DNA of 64,000 nt from Burkholderia sp. 8Y (GTDB lineage: Bacteria; Pseudomonadota; Gammaproteobacteria; Burkholderiales; Burkholderiaceae), in contig NZ_LR733520.1 of the NCBI RefSeq assembly GCF_902506145.1, positions 2,580-66,579 on the forward strand, in the 5' to 3' direction. The notes under the pieces are model-generated. The model saw nothing but the letters and a program-made list of their open reading frames with translations, was not told the origin of the DNA and made no database searches. A program made the translations under genes and the position numbers. Positions 16,426 through 23,649 of this stretch are shown here, piece by piece (position 1 is the stretch's first letter; each line of letters starts with the position of its first letter).

Positions 16426-17730
16426 TCACGCGATAGCCAGCGCGCGCCGATATTGAATCGCTTCCGCAACGTGCGCGGCTTCCGGCGTGTCGACGCCCGC
16501 GAGATCCGCAATCGTCCGCACGACCTTCAGCACGCGGTAATACGCCCGCGCCGACCAGCCGAACCGCTCTCCCGCCGAGCGTAGCAGCGCCTCGCCGGCG
16601 GAATTGGGGCGGCAAACGTCGTCGGCTTCGCGGCCGTCCAGTTCGCGATTCGTCTTGCTCTGTCGGCGCAACTGCGCCTCCCGCGCGACGGCGACGCGCG
16701 CCGCCACCTGCGCGCTCGACTCGCCACGCTTCGCACTGCGCGCCGACAGTTCCGCGGGCGAGAGCGCCGGCAATTCGATCTGAATGTCGATGCGGTCGAC
16801 CAGTGGCCCCGACAGCTTGCGCAGATAGCGCGCCGCACTGTCCGGCGAGCATCGGCAACGGCCGGACGGATCGCCGCGCCATCCGCACGGGCACGGGTTC
16901 ATCGCGGCGATGAGCTGGCAGGCGGCGGGGAAGTCCGCCTGTTGCGCGGCGCGGGAAATGGTGATGCGGCCGGCTTCGAGCGGTTCGCGCAGCGTTTCCA
17001 GCACTTTGCGATCGAATTCGGGAAGCTCGTCGAGGAACAGCACGCCCAGATGCGCGAGCGTGATCTCGCCCGGTTGCGGCGGATTGCGCCCGCCGACGAG
17101 CGCCGCCGAACTCGACGAATGATGCGGCGCGCGAAACGGCCGCTGCCGCCACTGCGCCGGTTGAAAGCCGAGCGAGCTCGCCGAGAGGATGGCGGCGGAC
17201 GTGAGCGCCTCGTCGTCGGACATCGGCGGAAGAAGGCCGGGCAGACGCGCGGCGAGCATCGACTTGCCCGCGCCCGGCGGCCCGACCATCAGCAGATGAT
17301 GCCCGCCCGCCGCCGCCACTTCGAGCGCCCGTCGTGCGCCCGGATGACCGATGACGTCGGCGAGATCCGGCGATGGCGTGCAAGCCGCGTCGGAAAGCGT
17401 CGCGGCACGCGCGGGTCTCAGCCGCGCGTCGGGTACGCCGTTCAGGTGGGCGCAAAGCTCGGGCAGATCCGCCGCCCCGTACACCTCGATGCCCGGCACC
17501 AGCGCCGCTTCCGCCGCGCTCGCGAGCGGCACGTAGACCTCGGGCACGCGGGCGCTGGCGGCGTCGGCGGCTGAGTATTGGCGTGCCGCGCCGCAGACCA
17601 TCGCGAACGCGCCGCGCATCGGCCTGAGCGCGCCGGTCAGCGACAACTCTCCCGCGAATTCACGATCCGCAAGCGATTCCGCGGGAATCTGCCCGCTCGC
17701 GGCGAGAATGCCGAGCGCGATCGGCAGGTC
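16426..17730 (-). pseudogene. comM: comM, C-terminal part (interrupted)
   Basis: The last 434 codons of comM/yifB, a MoxR/Mg-chelatase-type AAA+ ATPase. In ComM it is the branch-migration helicase of natural transformation. The fragment begins in phase with DLPIALGILAASGQIP and contains Walker A GPPGAGKS, Walker B VLFLDELPEF, the zinc/CPCG segment (MNPCPCGW) and the C-terminal Mg-chelatase lid domain. The missing first 81 codons lie at 23310-23552 beyond the inserted element; 81 + 434 = 515 residues, normal for the family. Apart from the insertion no frameshift is seen. An internal ATG at 17646 could start a truncated product, which would still hold the ATPase core. Confidence 0.93.
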
Positions 17731-17800
17731 TGGTCTTTAGGGGTGTCGTTAACAGTTACCAAAAATCTTCTTGTTTAAAATCAAGATGTTGACGTTCCTA

Positions 17801-18202
17801 TCAGTTTTGAGGGCGGAGGTCCACAATATTGTCGCTACTCCGCTTGGCGCTTAATTCACGATTCGCGATGACGAGCATCTCATTCAGAGTGGCCAATTTC
17901 TGCAACCGTGCCTTCACCGCACCAAGTTCGGCGCGAAGCTCGGCGTTCTTTCGACGTTCTTCTGCTAGCTCGTTCCGTTTCGCATCGCGCTGTTGTCGGC
18001 TCGAAGCGCCTTGCTTGACGCGTATCTGCTCGGCGATAGACGGATAGTGGTTATGGATAAGCGCAGGCGTGACGCCGGCCTCACGAGCTACGGCCGAAAT
18101 GCTTAATTTGTCCGCATTGGTACGAGCACGGCCGCGCTCGATTCGATGGATTGCTAACTCGAGTTCTTTTTCACGCGTGGTTGCATGCTTACGGTCACCC
18201 AT
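17801..18202 (-). CDS. TnpC-like HTH/coiled-coil transposition accessory protein
   Basis: A 133-residue basic protein. The N-terminal half has a TetR-like helix-turn-helix (LSISAVAREAGVTPALIHNH). The C-terminal half is a predicted coiled coil rich in Glu, Lys, Arg and Leu (RQQRDAKRNELAEERRKN). This HTH-plus-coil layout and the position as last gene after the recombinases match TnpC of Tn554-type elements (125 residues), which influences orientation and efficiency of transposition. Its ATG overlaps the end of the upstream recombinase by eight bases, so coupled translation is likely. The role here is inferred from position and architecture. Confidence 0.7.
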   Translation of the reverse strand: MGDRKHATTREKELELAIHRIERGRARTNADKLSISAVAREAGVTPALIHNHYPSIAEQIRVKQGASSRQQRDAKRNELAEERRKNAELRAELGAVKARLQKLATLNEMLVIANRELSAKRSSDNIVDLRPQN

Positions 18203-20072
18203 TCTGTGAATCCTCGATAGGGCAGCCCAATTTGGCTAGCACATCGGCACACCGGGAAACGTCTTTTGCAACCCGCGCGCGTCCACTCGGACCGATATCC
18301 TCCGCAGATTCTAACTGTCGAAGTTGGTGGAACAGGCTGTGGTAGACATGCGTATGTGGCCGTCCGATAACGGCGCTATTGCACCCATCACCACAGCGCG
18401 TAGGTTCAAGGTCGTTGCCTGGGCACAAATTGTCGTCAGCGGTACACCAAGCGTGACCATTGCTCCGTATGGGCGTACTGCGTGCAATCGATGCGACCAT
18501 CGCAGCATGGTTCTTGAACAGGCCAATGTTTTCATCTCGCGAGCGCCAGTCGACAAGACGAGTCCCGTACCCGCCCGAGAGCGGCTCTGACGCGTCAAGC
18601 CAAGTCGAGACGACTGCTTCCTTCAGGTCATCAAGCTCGTCCTCGATTTCGAGATACAGCAGCATCTCTTGAGAGTCGTTAAGTGCATATCCCAACGTCA
18701 TCTCCATCGACCAATGCTTGAAATGAGCCTTCAAGTAACGAAGGTCACCAAACTGGCTGCGAGCGGCATAGTTCGCAAACTTACGCCGGAACTGGTGGGA
18801 GGCTAGGTTCCAGTCGACGCCGCACGCTTTCGCGAATTTCTTAAGGTCGGAGTTGAGCGCATTAAGCGAAAGCGTACGAACTCTGTTTCCTGTGGCCTTG
18901 TTCACGCCGACGAACAGGGCATCGAGGTGGTCTTGTGCTTCGGCGACGCGAATATCGTTAACGTCTGCGGATTGATAGGCGGCTATCTCTCCGCGCAACA
19001 TGTCTTGGTAAGGCGCAGCCCACCGCTCAAGCACGCGCAGCGCTGTGACGGCAGCATCGGGAATCATCCATTCGGTAGCTCCCTCGAATGTTTTTGTGGA
19101 TTCCGACCTCATCCACCAATATTCCAAGCTGTCGTCGTCGGTAGTGGAGTAGCAGCTGTTAGCACGAAGAAAGGCGAGTTCGTGATTGCGGCACCCGCTG
19201 AGACTGGCAATCACCACATAGCAGGCTGCGCGAATGTCGTGGACCTGTTCCACGAACTCTCCATAAGCTCCTTCAAAGCCTAGGTCGCGAAGAGCATCCG
19301 CATTACGCCGTTTATCCGGCTTTGCGCCGACCCTGCGTCGCATTTCGTCGCGTAGGTCCAGCAATGGCGGTGCCTCAACCACAGTTTTCCACGCCGATTG
19401 AAACAACGTCACAAAGATGTCGTCCGGAATCAGCGGAGTTTTGCGGTCTCGCTTGTCTCGTCCGCCTTTTTTGGAGCCAGAAAGGTGGTGAGAAGACGAG
19501 TCTGGCCACGGATGCTCGCGGATAGGGTCGCTTGTGTACTGGCTTAAGTAATGGAGGTCTGTAACGGCTTTGATGCGTTTGTAGAGTGCCGCCGGCGTTA
19601 GCGCTTTTCCGCCAGTTTCCTTGCGGGACCGCATTGCGTGAACATAGTTATTGCAAACGAGCGGTGAGATGTCACCAAGTCGAGTGATGCCTAGGTCTTG
19701 AATATGCCGGATGAAATAGGATATTTCACGAACGTTCCGATTGAGTGACGAAGCGGCGAGACGCCTGCGGTTGCTGCCTCCCTTTCGCATGTAGCGATAA
19801 ATCACCTGCTTCATCAGGTCTCGGTAGGACGGTGGAAACATAAAGAAGTCAATCTTCGTTTCAGATTGACGAGTGTTCGTCGTTGCTCCGGTAAGCCACC
19901 AAATTTCATCGCCGTATCTGCTTAACACACGCCATTTACCGTTCACCTTCCGAACCGATATGACTAGCTTGTCGCGTTCCAACCCTTTGGGCACGAGCCG
20001 AAGGTCGTCGGGTTGTGTTAGCAAGAACGCAGGCGAATCGATTTTCGAGTGGGGCAGTTGTTTGACATTCAC
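18195..20072 (-). CDS. tyrosine recombinase, TnpB-like (625 aa)
   Basis: The largest recombinase of the trio, close in length to TnpB of Tn554 (630). A SAM-like core-binding region (about 95-190) precedes the catalytic domain. Catalytic candidates are Arg in LSGCRNHELAFLR, the HxxR pair in ASHQFRRKFANYAAR, a His/Trp box in KAHFKHWSMEM and the nucleophile Tyr in MTLGYALND. After it comes a cysteine-rich tail with Cys residues in AWCTADDNLCPG and TRCGDGCNSAVIG, likely a small zinc-binding domain. It starts at GTG, overlapping the previous stop as GTGA (20069-20072). DNA strand exchange with the other two recombinases is inferred. Confidence 0.85.
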   Translation of the reverse strand: MNVKQLPHSKIDSPAFLLTQPDDLRLVPKGLERDKLVISVRKVNGKWRVLSRYGDEIWWLTGATTNTRQSETKIDFFMFPPSYRDLMKQVIYRYMRKGGSNRRRLAASSLNRNVREISYFIRHIQDLGITRLGDISPLVCNNYVHAMRSRKETGGKALTPAALYKRIKAVTDLHYLSQYTSDPIREHPWPDSSSHHLSGSKKGGRDKRDRKTPLIPDDIFVTLFQSAWKTVVEAPPLLDLRDEMRRRVGAKPDKRRNADALRDLGFEGAYGEFVEQVHDIRAACYVVIASLSGCRNHELAFLRANSCYSTTDDDSLEYWWMRSESTKTFEGATEWMIPDAAVTALRVLERWAAPYQDMLRGEIAAYQSADVNDIRVAEAQDHLDALFVGVNKATGNRVRTLSLNALNSDLKKFAKACGVDWNLASHQFRRKFANYAARSQFGDLRYLKAHFKHWSMEMTLGYALNDSQEMLLYLEIEDELDDLKEAVVSTWLDASEPLSGGYGTRLVDWRSRDENIGLFKNHAAMVASIARSTPIRSNGHAWCTADDNLCPGNDLEPTRCGDGCNSAVIGRPHTHVYHSLFHQLRQLESAEDIGPSGRARVAKDVSRCADVLAKLGCPIEDSQNG

Positions 20073-21763
20073 GCCGAAAGCTCCTCGACTTCACGAATGA
20101 TGGCTTCGCTGCGCCAGAAGGGATGCGGGTCCTGTCGTGCACGCTCGCGCTCTCGGTCCACATCGATTCGTTTAAAAACGCCTCTTTTCAGCCCCGCCTG
20201 TATAACGTCTCGGTCAATGAGTCGAACGATATGTGCGAACTGCTTTCGCCATCGCCGAGGGTCCATGCGTGCTCTCTCAGACAAAATGCGCCAATAAAAG
20301 CTGAATAAGCGATAGAGGTCGTCTCCCGTCACGACATAGTTGCGGCAGCGAAGGCAGTCGAGGAAGTTCGTGCAAATGACATTGTCTCTTTTCGGCGCAT
20401 ACTCGCCGTTGAAGACATCACTGCAGCGACCAACCGGCGTCCTTTCTGTTGCGCCCAAGGTGTTTGTGAGGAGCTCGTTGGTCAAAGCAAGTCCGAGGAA
20501 CTTCCAATTTTTCTGGGAGTCCTCGCCCGGGCGCAGGTAGCTAATGGCCGCGACCGGCACCGAGTTACCGGCGGCGGCGGCCGTCGAGGCTACATCACCC
20601 TCAAGCAGCTCGTACACGCGATTGACGAAGGTTTTTCGGAGTCGGCTTACAGTAATATTCAGAGGTTTCCCGTTTTCATCCTTCAGGTCGTAACGCCGAA
20701 CCAAGGTTTTAATCGCGAGGGCGAGCGTACCATCCGTCAGCGCCACAATCTCATTGGCTATGCGCTTCACCCGCCCGGTCGTTTTTGCCCGATAGAGCCA
20801 TACACGATTTTTCAAGTGCCTGGGCGCTTTTTTTCTGAGATTCTCCGACAAGGCGACAACGCGCCGAATTAACTGGGCGACGGTTGGTCGTAGAGTGGGC
20901 ATTGCTTCCGACTCTTTCGATTCAGCGTGCGTGTCACGAAGCGCCACTTTGCTTATCCTGCGACCGCGCCGCTTAAAGAGCACAAGAAATGTCCTGTCCA
21001 GCTTGGGATGGGGCCGTAGACAATCGGGCGGCATCTCAAGAAGAGGTGTAGTGTTCCTGCCGGTGTGGAGTGCAACCACGAGCAGCGCACATCCGACCAA
21101 ATATCCAGTGAGTTCCACGCCTTCGGAAAATAGCGGCGCCACAGCGTTTCGCACCGCGAGAGTGAACGCTTTTCGCTGAGCCCGCGAGAGAGGCTTTGCG
21201 CCCTTCGACTGACGCCAAACTCCAGGAAAGGGATTATCCGGAAACGTCGAATTGTCGCCATCGCGAACTTCTAGAACGAGCCCTCGTGAGCACAATGCTT
21301 TTAGAAGCGTTTTGGTGCAGCCGTACCGTGCTTTAGAGGTAACTAACGATGTGCCATCGCTCCTGAGAAAGGCGAGATACCCATCAATTATCTCGCGGTT
21401 GATGTCCGCCAGTGTGAGGTCACGACGAAGCGACGAACTTAAAAGAACCAAGTAGTCAAGGAAAAAAGCCGCTCCTAACTTACAGCAGGACACTACAGTG
21501 AGCGCAGCCAAATCACCGTCCTGCTTGGCGAAGAACCTCTCTATCTGACGCTGACAAGCATAGGTTATCGCGTCCAATCCGACGCCGTACCATTTCGAGA
21601 AGTCGAAAGTTCGCCAGCGTCCGACTTCCGGTGGGAAAGTGATAATGGTGTTTTGGGGAGGGAGAATATTGGGCGAAACAACAGGTTTCCCCTCGATGAT
21701 TTGATGTTCGATGGTCGGAATAGACAGGTCCGACTTCACGAAGACTTTTCGCTTGCTACTCAC
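20069..21763 (-). CDS. tyrosine recombinase-like protein (564 aa), middle gene of the trio
   Basis: A 564-residue member of the phage-integrase superfamily, more divergent than its neighbours. The Arg I region is ALHTGRNTTPLLEMP, the box II equivalent is TVSRLRKTFVNR (Ser in place of the usual His of HxxR), and a possible nucleophile Tyr is in VAAISYLRPGED. A cysteine-containing segment (ICTNFLDCLRCRNYV) near residue 480 may bind zinc. The start is GTG, overlapping the upstream stop as GTGA (21760-21763), and its own stop overlaps the next gene the same way. The altered box II suggests modified or structural function, but activity cannot be judged from sequence. Confidence 0.78.
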   Translation of the reverse strand: MSSKRKVFVKSDLSIPTIEHQIIEGKPVVSPNILPPQNTIITFPPEVGRWRTFDFSKWYGVGLDAITYACQRQIERFFAKQDGDLAALTVVSCCKLGAAFFLDYLVLLSSSLRRDLTLADINREIIDGYLAFLRSDGTSLVTSKARYGCTKTLLKALCSRGLVLEVRDGDNSTFPDNPFPGVWRQSKGAKPLSRAQRKAFTLAVRNAVAPLFSEGVELTGYLVGCALLVVALHTGRNTTPLLEMPPDCLRPHPKLDRTFLVLFKRRGRRISKVALRDTHAESKESEAMPTLRPTVAQLIRRVVALSENLRKKAPRHLKNRVWLYRAKTTGRVKRIANEIVALTDGTLALAIKTLVRRYDLKDENGKPLNITVSRLRKTFVNRVYELLEGDVASTAAAAGNSVPVAAISYLRPGEDSQKNWKFLGLALTNELLTNTLGATERTPVGRCSDVFNGEYAPKRDNVICTNFLDCLRCRNYVVTGDDLYRLFSFYWRILSERARMDPRRWRKQFAHIVRLIDRDVIQAGLKRGVFKRIDVDRERERARQDPHPFWRSEAIIREVEELSA

Positions 21764-22914
21764 GGTTTGACGTCTCCAATGTCGTTAATCTCGTCGTCAT
21801 AGGCAAGCACAGCTTCGTCAGCCATCTCGTTAATGATGTGAAGATAGACCATGGTGGAGCGCAGCGACGCGTGGCCCAACTGCTTCTGAAGGAAGACGAG
21901 TGGCTCAACCGTATTGCGCTTTCGGTTTCGAGATAAGACAGCCAGTGTGTGAGTCGCGTAGGTATGCCGGAGCATGTGAGGATGAGTCCTAAGGCCGATG
22001 CTTCGCCCCAATGCTCTGACCATCGCTTCGATTCCCTTCCCGTCCTGCGACCATGGCTCGCCATCCTGATTCAGGAACAGCTGGGTCGGTTCGATTGAAG
22101 CCAAGGATGCACGGGCACCACGATGCAGCACGACGTAGCGATGAAGATTCTTCATGAGCCTTCGGCTCATGTAGATGTCCCTGGGTCGTGACCCCTTCGT
22201 CTGCATGCCGCTGCCATCGGAAGGGTCAAGGCTGACGCGGACGTTTCTTGAATGAATTCCGACCTTGTCAGGGTCATAGACGTAAGAAACTGGGAAGGTG
22301 GCCAGCTCTTCACGTCGTAGACCTGTCCTCAATGCCATTCTGATAATGACATGATGGTGTTCGTTGACGGCCGCCGCCAGCAACCGGTCCGCCTCGTCCG
22401 AAGTGAGAAACTTCGGCAGATTGGGGTGCTTTCGGGGCATTACAGAGCGGACTTCCTGCCCCCTGCGGGTGTTGCTCACATGCGCGAAAAAGCCTGTGTC
22501 CGCAGGCGCATGACGCAGCTCATACGAATATGGAAGGATGGGCACCCATTCACGTCGAACTGCGAATTCGTAAAATTCGCAAATATAAACTAGCCGTTGC
22601 CGTACGGTATTGCGCGCTAGGTTTGCGACGTTGGTACAGTAATCACGGTAGCCAGCTACCAAGTTCTTGTCCTCGCCGCGCATCACGTCTCTCCAGTCGA
22701 GTTCGTGGGCTTCGAGAAAGCCGAAGTAATCGTACAAGGCTCGGCCAATCGCCTCCCACGACTTTGCTGAACCGATTTGACCTCTGAGGAGATAGAAGCG
22801 AAGGAACTCATTTGCTTCCACGCAGCTTTCCATGCTTTCCCAGAGAAGAATTGGGAACCCCGGACGCGGTAGCCCGCCAAGGATGTAGTCGCTCGTTGCG
22901 GGCACGAGAAACAC
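21760..22914 (-). CDS. site-specific tyrosine recombinase/integrase, TnpA-like (384 aa)
   Basis: The most canonical recombinase of the element. An N-terminal SAM-like domain (about 25-120) precedes a catalytic domain with all the classic residues: Arg in MALRTGLRREELATF, HxLRH in THPHMLRHTYATH, LGH in KQLGHASLRST and the nucleophile in TMVYLHIIN. Length is similar to TnpA of Tn554 (361). It starts at GTG 22914, directly abutting the TAA of the primase-like gene. It is the best candidate for the enzyme that cuts the comM target. Confidence 0.9.
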   Translation of the reverse strand: MFLVPATSDYILGGLPRPGFPILLWESMESCVEANEFLRFYLLRGQIGSAKSWEAIGRALYDYFGFLEAHELDWRDVMRGEDKNLVAGYRDYCTNVANLARNTVRQRLVYICEFYEFAVRREWVPILPYSYELRHAPADTGFFAHVSNTRRGQEVRSVMPRKHPNLPKFLTSDEADRLLAAAVNEHHHVIIRMALRTGLRREELATFPVSYVYDPDKVGIHSRNVRVSLDPSDGSGMQTKGSRPRDIYMSRRLMKNLHRYVVLHRGARASLASIEPTQLFLNQDGEPWSQDGKGIEAMVRALGRSIGLRTHPHMLRHTYATHTLAVLSRNRKRNTVEPLVFLQKQLGHASLRSTMVYLHIINEMADEAVLAYDDEINDIGDVKP

Positions 22915-23220
22915 TTAGATTCCTCGCTCTCGTAGCAAGCGTGCAGCTTGCAGAAAGGTCAATGCCCGGAGATGCATTGCCAGGTCGATGGCCCCGGCAC
23001 CTCCTGTTTCGTCGCGTGTATCAAAGAATCGGGAGTCGGTGCAAAGAAGCTCGAAGTGGCGCTCACCGACGATGAGATGCCATCGAGAAGACTTGGGGCT
23101 TTTCGTCGGAACAAAAGCGGAATCTTTTTTAACGTGGTCGGCAAGTAACGGAAGCAGCGCGCTGGCGTCAAGGTGGCGCCACCTAGCCAGTTCGGAGTTA
23201 TCCACAGCCCGTCTCGTCAT
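22915..23220 (-). CDS. small primase-like (CHC2/TraC-type N-terminal) protein
   Basis: A 101-residue protein, first gene of the element's operon. ATG 23220 has a GGGGAGGG ribosome site; the frame is open to 23301, but that extension is a hydrophobic translation of the element's end and is rejected. The body reads ALLPLLADHVKKDSAFVP, a HLIVGERHFELLC strand pair, FFDTRDETGGAGAIDLAMHL and a C-terminal AARLLRERG. The GGxGAIDL-x-MHL block recalls the zinc-finger/N-terminal part of TraC- and DUF3991-type primases, but zinc cysteines and a TOPRIM domain are missing. It may be a cut-down cargo gene or a DNA-binding accessory. Family assignment is tentative. Confidence 0.55.
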   Translation of the reverse strand: MTRRAVDNSELARWRHLDASALLPLLADHVKKDSAFVPTKSPKSSRWHLIVGERHFELLCTDSRFFDTRDETGGAGAIDLAMHLRALTFLQAARLLRERGI

Positions 23221-23309
23221 GTAAACCCTCCCCGGACCCCACCCGCTGCTCGTCTCTACGAGACTAATACAAAACAGAAAAACAAGTAACAGAAACCACA
23301 CCCCATAAC

Positions 23310-23552
23310 GAAGCGGCCCGACTCCTTCGGCAAGTCGGCGGGCGCGAGATTAACGGTAATGCGGCTGACGGGAAAGTCGAAGCCGCAGTTCTGCAACGCG
23401 GCGCGCACGCGCTCGCGGCTTTCGCGGACTTCGAGATCGGGCAGACCGACGATGGAGAACGACGGCAGCCCGTTGGCAAGATGCACTTCGACGACAACTT
23501 CCGGCGCGCGCCCAGGCGCGGGCGCGCGGCTGCGTACCACGGCAAGCGACAT
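23310..23552 (-). pseudogene. comM: comM, N-terminal part (interrupted)
   Basis: The first 81 codons of comM: start [11 protein letters not shown], then [31 protein letters not shown] and [12 protein letters not shown], the conserved N-terminal ComM/YifB domain. Translation would run 17 residues into the mobile element and stop near 23256. The remainder of the gene lies at 16426-17730. With both fragments otherwise intact, exact excision would restore the full reading frame. Confidence 0.93.
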
Positions 23553-23649
23553 GTTTTCACCTGAAACGGCGCGCGCCGGAAAACGGCTGCGCCGGCAATA
23601 AGACTAGGACTTCACGGCTCGCCGGCCGGGTACCAGAAGGAAAGCGCGC

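Follow-up and report, generated by a model that had tools for sequence, protein, structure and literature searches.

The comM gene of Burkholderia sp. 8Y lies in two separated pieces, which raises the questions of what split it, how the intruder moves, and how often this happens to comM. We analyzed the window, a stretch of 64,000 nucleotides from this genome (contig NZ_LR733520.1, positions 2,580 to 66,579 of the forward strand; RefSeq assembly GCF_902506145.1). ComM is the branch-migration helicase of natural transformation and helps the uptake of foreign DNA. The gene content, gene order, and ends of the insert make it very probably a small, cargo-free member of the strand-biased circularizing integrative element (SE) family. 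It probably arrived in comM recently.

The initial annotation had comM split between two codons by an element of about 5.6 kb, with both halves intact. Both pieces are indeed open, and their 81 and 434 codons add up to the 515-codon ComM of a congeneric genome; the position at codon 81/82 is just one of two equivalent readings, 1 base apart, because both 6-bp spacers flanking the element end in G. The insert is also A/T-richer than its surroundings, as had been said, with a GC content of 54% against 63% for the window. In the host genome (6.28 Mb, 99.99% complete), a full ComM query gave two matches at E ≤ 1e-12, and the ChlI model gave four hits, namely the two comM pieces, a third that passed the cut-off (36.7 bits, in a frame of 811 aa), and a fourth that fell short of it. 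No second intact comM was found by either search, and as far as searched the gene appears to be single-copy. Two of the nearest relatives, read across the site, are uninterrupted, and 45 of the 58 genomes from the genus matched a degenerate pattern for the joined site perfectly, the other 13 being the window's own genome and 12 more. The claim that an element of a type other than the AbaR islands interrupts comM held.

The three recombinases counted earlier are present as three recombinase-type proteins, one of them lacking both catalytic histidines; two further genes and the terminal repeats had gone unmentioned (Table 1). All five genes are open. The four core genes stand in the SE order intA-tfp-intB-srap, and both the IntA- and the IntB-like proteins carry the catalytic R-H-R-Y expected of an SE, read by eye from the sequence in the former and seen in the latter as R295, H426, R429, H453, and Y462, invariant in 15 homologues. 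In the Tfp-like protein, the catalytic histidines are replaced by S373 (His in 0 of 15 homologues) and N400 (His in 6 of 15), and the first Arg is missing in 7 of 15 homologues. Profiles were built from 15 operons, the window operon included; the 14 other loci comprised 13 on plasmids and 1 on a Pseudomonas aegrilactucae contig, one scan of genome contigs having added a single relative. The references were a single SE operon on pAQU1, taken as the published SE-Pda04Ya311; an element at the Escherichia coli ssb 3′ end, classed as a GInt by place and four-gene layout; and an annotated gamma-mobile-trio (GMT) operon, gmtY-integrase-gmtX, with names from the record annotation. All four profiles matched the pAQU1 SE protein at the same position, with the HH probabilities of Table 1 and hmmsearch scores of 54 (IntA), 39 (Tfp), 68 (IntB), and 34 (Srap) bits. 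No HH probability above 23.2% was obtained for the GMT proteins, and there was no NCBIfam GMT hit at E 0.01. Profiles and gene order, together with the ends, carry the placement among SEs.

The terminal repeats bound the element at 17736 to 23308 (5573 bp). Of their initial 15 bp, C and C′ share 12, a level equalled by 3 of 200,000 random pairs drawn from the element, and over 19 bp they share 12 (0.06% of random pairs), like the imperfect 13- to 19-bp terminal inverted repeats of SEs. With the spacer register set by aligning C and C′, comM identity on the left stops at the start of C and on the right resumes exactly 6 bp past C′. Read along the comM strand, the sequence is GGGCC-GCTTCG-TTATGGGGTGTGGTT at the left junction and CCCCTAAA-GACCAG-ACCTGCC at the right one; the uninterrupted site of several relatives is GGCC-GCTTCG-A(T/C)CTGCC, and other relatives vary within it. 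GACCAG has its first and last G in common with GCTTCG of comM. In published SEs, the 6 bp adjoining C are reported to stem from the target and those adjoining C′ from the donor site (PMC10214605, PMC9345347, PMC5991714), and both spacers are consistent with this rule. If it holds, GACCAG would be a record of the previous site of the element, other than the comM site. The C/C′ pair was not among the 25 inverted pairs listed of 66, and a script scan found no convincing inverted repeats in four relatives.

Table 1. Features of the element and its flanks (window coordinates), and positions of split comM genes
Feature	Coordinates	Strand	Remarks
comM C-terminal fragment	16426..17730	-	434 codons + stop, open, begins DLPIAL
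Right 6-bp spacer GACCAG	17730..17735	-	4/6 bases unlike comM; candidate donor-site footprint
Terminal repeat C′ (reverse complement TTTAGGGGTGTCGTTAACA)	17736..17754	-	Pairs with C
Srap-like small protein, ORF5, 133 aa	17801..18202	-	TetR_N-like N terminus, PF00440 E 5e-5, just under gathering score; HH 87.0% to pAQU1 SE Srap
IntB-like large tyrosine recombinase, ORF4, 625 aa	18195..20072	-	PF00589 E 4e-5, under gathering score; HH 98.3% to pAQU1 SE IntB
Tfp-like degenerate tyrosine recombinase, ORF3, 564 aa	20069..21763	-	No Pfam hit; HH 97.3% to pAQU1 SE Tfp
IntA-like tyrosine recombinase, ORF2, 384 aa	21760..22914	-	PF00589 E 2.9e-18; HH 97.9% to pAQU1 SE IntA
O1, conserved accessory protein, 101 aa	22915..23220	-	Start picked by conservation; longer GTG frame reaches 23301
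Hairpin GTCTC-GTA-GAGAC, then GAGCAGC	23245..23264	-	31 nt upstream of O1
Terminal repeat C (TTATGGGGTGTGGTTTCTG)	23290..23308	-	intA-side end; spotted by eye, scored afterwards
Left 6-bp spacer GCTTCG	23309..23314	-	comM's own; same in uninterrupted comM of several relatives
comM N-terminal fragment	23310..23552	-	81 codons, open, ends ...SGRF; extra G at 23309 in common with spacer
Split comM, codon ~36			G327
Split comM, codon ~65			G142, G289, G365, G151
Split comM, codon 81/82			Window genome
Split comM, codon ~315 (315-317)			G005, G002, G030, G025
Split comM, codon ~352			G144
Split comM, codon ~364			G034

Other elements also reach comM. Of the family's 398 genomes, 325 had a match to a ComM query of 515 aa. 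Split genes were tallied in 15 genomes chosen among the matches listed, which is no census; left out were G080 (overlapping adjacent pieces), G033 (a complete copy and a fragment), G031 (one match), and G008 (weak short matches). Among the matches listed, comM lies in separated pieces in at least 11 genomes besides the window's, with the pieces on different contigs in G289, G365, G151, G030, and G025. A distant SE (hmmsearch, IntA 378, Tfp 352, IntB 508, and Srap 92 bits) adjoins the C-terminal piece in G144, where it is reversed relative to the window and belongs to an island of ~43 kb in comM (L083, L095, L097); its ends can be placed by hand in a similar 6-bp layout (attL GGCAAT-CAGCTG-TTCTGA, attR TTCAGAA-CAAGTG-GAAGCTGGC). 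A very divergent IntA-?-IntB-Srap set adjoins the N-terminal piece in G034 (L107, L089; HH 96.4, 94.5, and 94.5%), its middle protein having no HH match to the tested profiles. Among the codon-65 inserts (L108 to L115), those of G142 and G151 carry a set of four genes (~649, 763, 212, and 415 to 463 aa) with divergent tyrosine recombinases, one of them IntB-like (97.8%); that of G365 carries one gene of this set, and that of G289 has no assigned gene. The codon-315 inserts, in the Walker B segment where Tsy and Tn6022 are reported to interrupt comM (PMC10293859), encode an IntA-like protein (HH 97.6%). These loci indicate that predicted tyrosine-recombinase elements hit comM repeatedly, in either orientation and at several sites. 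In G327, the broken N-terminal comM piece has a large serine recombinase as its neighbor (533 aa; L117, 10816 to 12417).

The published SE host range is Gammaproteobacteria, which is no mechanistic criterion, and the window's genus is listed under Betaproteobacteria. The SE survey reports no Tfp or Srap homologue in Alpha- or Betaproteobacteria (PMC10214605). At E ≤ 1e-30, the Tfp profile had matches in 27 of the 398 Burkholderiaceae genomes, and regions were taken from 19 of these (L070 to L088). With the window proteins as tblastn queries, all four genes were found in 18 of the 19 regions, Tfp being in two pieces in L080; Srap was not found by tblastn in L076, which runs off its contig. Among the papers listed in literature searches, no title or abstract opening reported such an SE element for Burkholderiaceae or an SE in comM. 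As to other targets, the SE-like operons of three Burkholderiaceae loci (L014, L015, L080) have similar left flanks, which suggests a common target gene. Those on Citrobacter and Pseudomonas plasmids (L023, L025) adjoin annotated umuC, another DNA-repair gene; in L023 the operon sits, by annotation, between umuD and a 1185-bp umuC.

The comM pieces bear on the age of the insertion. The C-terminal piece gave dN/dS values of 0.069, 0.081, and 0.145 against three relatives, and intact comM among those relatives gave 0.063 to 0.103. At the amino-acid level, the N-terminal piece is identical to its counterpart in two of them, and its dN against the third is 0.011. There is no clear decay, and the simplest reading is a recent insertion. 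The host genome encodes ComEC- and DprA-type domains. In Acinetobacter baumannii, AbaR insertion is reported to inactivate comM and lower transformation (PMC7508600), and comM loss may have lowered transformation of the window's host as well.

Several findings weigh against a recently arrived SE. The C/C′ repeat came from inspection by eye, with the 15-bp length picked afterwards; the Tfp-like protein retains R236, R376, and Y409 and is without only the histidines; the reference SE is one operon only; and tblastn of the window proteins against it detected IntB only (25% over 267 aa), with none found for IntA, Tfp, or Srap at E 0.01. IntA resembles GinA of the GInt as well (HH 88.8%; hmmsearch 22 bits). 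The C-terminal value of 0.145 against one relative exceeds that of the intact pairs, and the G144 site, taken from a congeneric genome, fits only with one synonymous base differing. The published survey is without any SE in Betaproteobacteria (PMC10214605); therefore, its search missed the window's clade, or its authors would exclude this clade from SE.

The alternative that survives best keeps the SE ancestry and has the element now immobile, a one-way insertion fixed in the lineage. SEs are reported to circularize one strand and to leave no empty site or low-level empty-site joints (PMC10214605, PMC9345347, PMC5991714), their circles are rare at ~0.001 per chromosome (PMC9345347, PMC5991714), and the host genome has one Tfp match only. 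The five open genes, the recognizable ends, and comM pieces that are open and without clear decay speak against this, and immobility is rather unlikely, although well short of negligible. Precise excision had been said to restore transformation; that it would occur easily is doubtful because SEs reportedly leave hardly any empty site. Far less probable is a GInt (ginABCD island) that sits at a novel site and excises by conventional cut and paste. GInts have an equal number of genes of similar sizes, are reported from Betaproteobacteria (PMC10214605), and share the GinA likeness of IntA. However, HH probabilities against the ssb-site GInt reached 39.8% for Tfp-GinC and no more than 14% for the remaining pairs, so that GinA alone of the ordered GinA-GinB-GinC-GinD set was matched, whereas ORF3, ORF4, and ORF5 match Tfp, IntB, and Srap of the SE at 87 to 98%. 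The degenerate recombinase is also second in the window, whereas GinC, the third, is the one reported without the first Arg (PMC5385486), and no direct repeat joining both junctions was among the 20 listed of at least 60 families. A comM-specific transposon of the Tsy kind (tyrosine recombinase, helix-turn-helix protein, and TnsF), although reported to target comM (PMC10293859), is the least probable, since the insertion at codon 81/82 is away from the Walker B segment (codon 315 to 317 in four other split genomes) and the gene set, which includes a Srap-like protein and a third protein with a recombinase fold, differs by description. RIT elements, described with three recombinases of 315 to 410 aa that all have the catalytic tyrosine and with 34-bp repeats (PMC10214605), were set apart by description as no fit.

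As an SE, the element would move as follows. IntA and IntB, aided by the degenerate Tfp and by Srap, would recombine C and C′ across the 6-bp spacer and in doing so would copy one strand out as a circle, which would take along the 6 bp beside C from the donor site; on integration, these would land beside C′ at the right junction, and the target's own 6 bp would remain beside C. O1 with its hairpin may assist or regulate the movement.

O1 had no match at the thresholds used in Pfam, NCBIfam, PHROGs, PADLOC, or PDB sequences; in a Pfam search of 13 O1 members with E up to 1, the window's O1 matched nothing and the others only chance-level families (E 0.054 or worse). A resemblance to a zinc-less DnaG-type CHC2 domain found no support in Pfam and PDB-sequence profile searches and is not claimed. 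Homologues were found by tblastn in 14 of the 19 Burkholderiaceae regions, 13 of them directly upstream of intA, and in 0 of 11 gammaproteobacterial loci, where a diverged O1 might escape; the O1 profile matched 39 of 398 family genomes at E ≤ 1e-6. The hairpin was analyzed at 30 O1 loci (L118 to L147). A stem of 4 to 7 pairs followed immediately by GAG[TC]AGC lies 28 to 98 nt upstream of the O1 match at 22 of these and is absent at 8, counts that overstate independent events because some loci are near-copies (L123 to L125). All 22 hairpins, 13 of them distinct, have perfect stems and 3-nt loops, with at least 5 pairs in 21 (6 in L120). Pair 5 from the base is of four types and pair 4 is invariant; for each of pairs 1, 2, and 3, only one or two hairpins have both sides altered. 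A perfect 5-bp stem with a 3-nt loop was seen at 1 of 275 other GAG[TC]AGC sites (49 sequences), and under a looser rule (loop of 3 to 7, G-U allowed) 55 of 327 sites, O1 sites included, had a stem. GAG[TC]AGC also precedes intA without O1 in L017 and L088.

Downstream of O1 at the 30 loci are SE intA in 22, gmtY in 4, and a weak GinA match in 1, with nothing assigned in 3. Two of the four O1-gmtY loci have the hairpin (L130 and L136). In a further GMT operon, in L032, O1 (294 to 593) with the hairpin stands directly upstream of gmtY, so that on this plasmid O1 accompanies a GMT operon as well as an SE-like one. In the window, there were no Rfam hits from 17600 to 23600 at E ≤ 1; from 23150 to 23600, a sigma-70 scan gave no promoter-like site, and one terminator-like site was scored (shuffle mean 1.1). 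No description of O1 and the hairpin for SE-type elements was found in the literature searched, and none of the papers listed in a search on GMT dealt with GMT itself. A tentative joint proposal, somewhat unlikely as a whole, is that O1 and the hairpin-GAGTAGC form an undescribed, exchangeable module of Burkholderiaceae multi-recombinase elements that serves several families (SE, GMT, and perhaps GInt) by acting at the left end. O1 might bind the hairpin in a single-stranded or copied-out intermediate and help start second-strand synthesis, or bind it in the mRNA and tune the operon. In the same proposal, comM might be a general landing pad, arrival in which would also cut competition from incoming DNA.

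SEs are described as a new class of transposition, proposed to involve the copying out of a single strand, with a surveyed range of Gammaproteobacteria only. A cargo-free SE of minimal size in the genome of a soil member of the Burkholderiaceae would widen that range and offer a compact test system for the mechanism. Repeated comM insertion, at several sites and in both orientations, makes it testable whether elements gain by disabling the host's transformation helicase, and the O1-hairpin module gives a concrete starting point for finding an accessory factor.

Among known systems, the closest are SE-6945, SE-6283 (Tn6283), and the pAQU1 SE. The window element, here known from its sequence, shares with them the intA-tfp-intB-srap order, a second recombinase that is degenerate (here in its two catalytic histidines), a Srap with a TetR-like N terminus, the absence of conjugation genes from the element, imperfect terminal repeats, and 6-bp spacers of which the right one is non-native. 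It differs in size (5573 bp, where the published minimum is 6353 bp; PMC10214605), in its Burkholderiaceae host where published hosts are Gammaproteobacteria, in its target comM, in the extra O1 and hairpin upstream of intA, and in proteins very distant in sequence from those of the pAQU1 SE. GInts are likewise site-specific, with three recombinases, a small protein, a circular form, and a GinA that window IntA resembles, but place the degenerate recombinase elsewhere in the order, differ in the other three protein families, and carry at least 2.5 kb of cargo. Some GMT operons have O1 and the same hairpin upstream, whereas their recombinases are unmatched to those of the window. Tsy and Tn6022/AbaR also interrupt comM, with other machinery and in its Walker B region (PMC10293859). 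Tn554, reported from Staphylococcus and Enterococcus, has a 6-bp footprint and a TnpC described as the counterpart of Srap and GinD (PMC10214605), but its tnpA-tnpB-tnpC layout is without the third recombinase-fold protein, Tfp, that the window element has. What is new beyond another SE is the Burkholderiaceae range, the repeated targeting of comM, and the presence of O1 with its hairpin in both SE and GMT operons.

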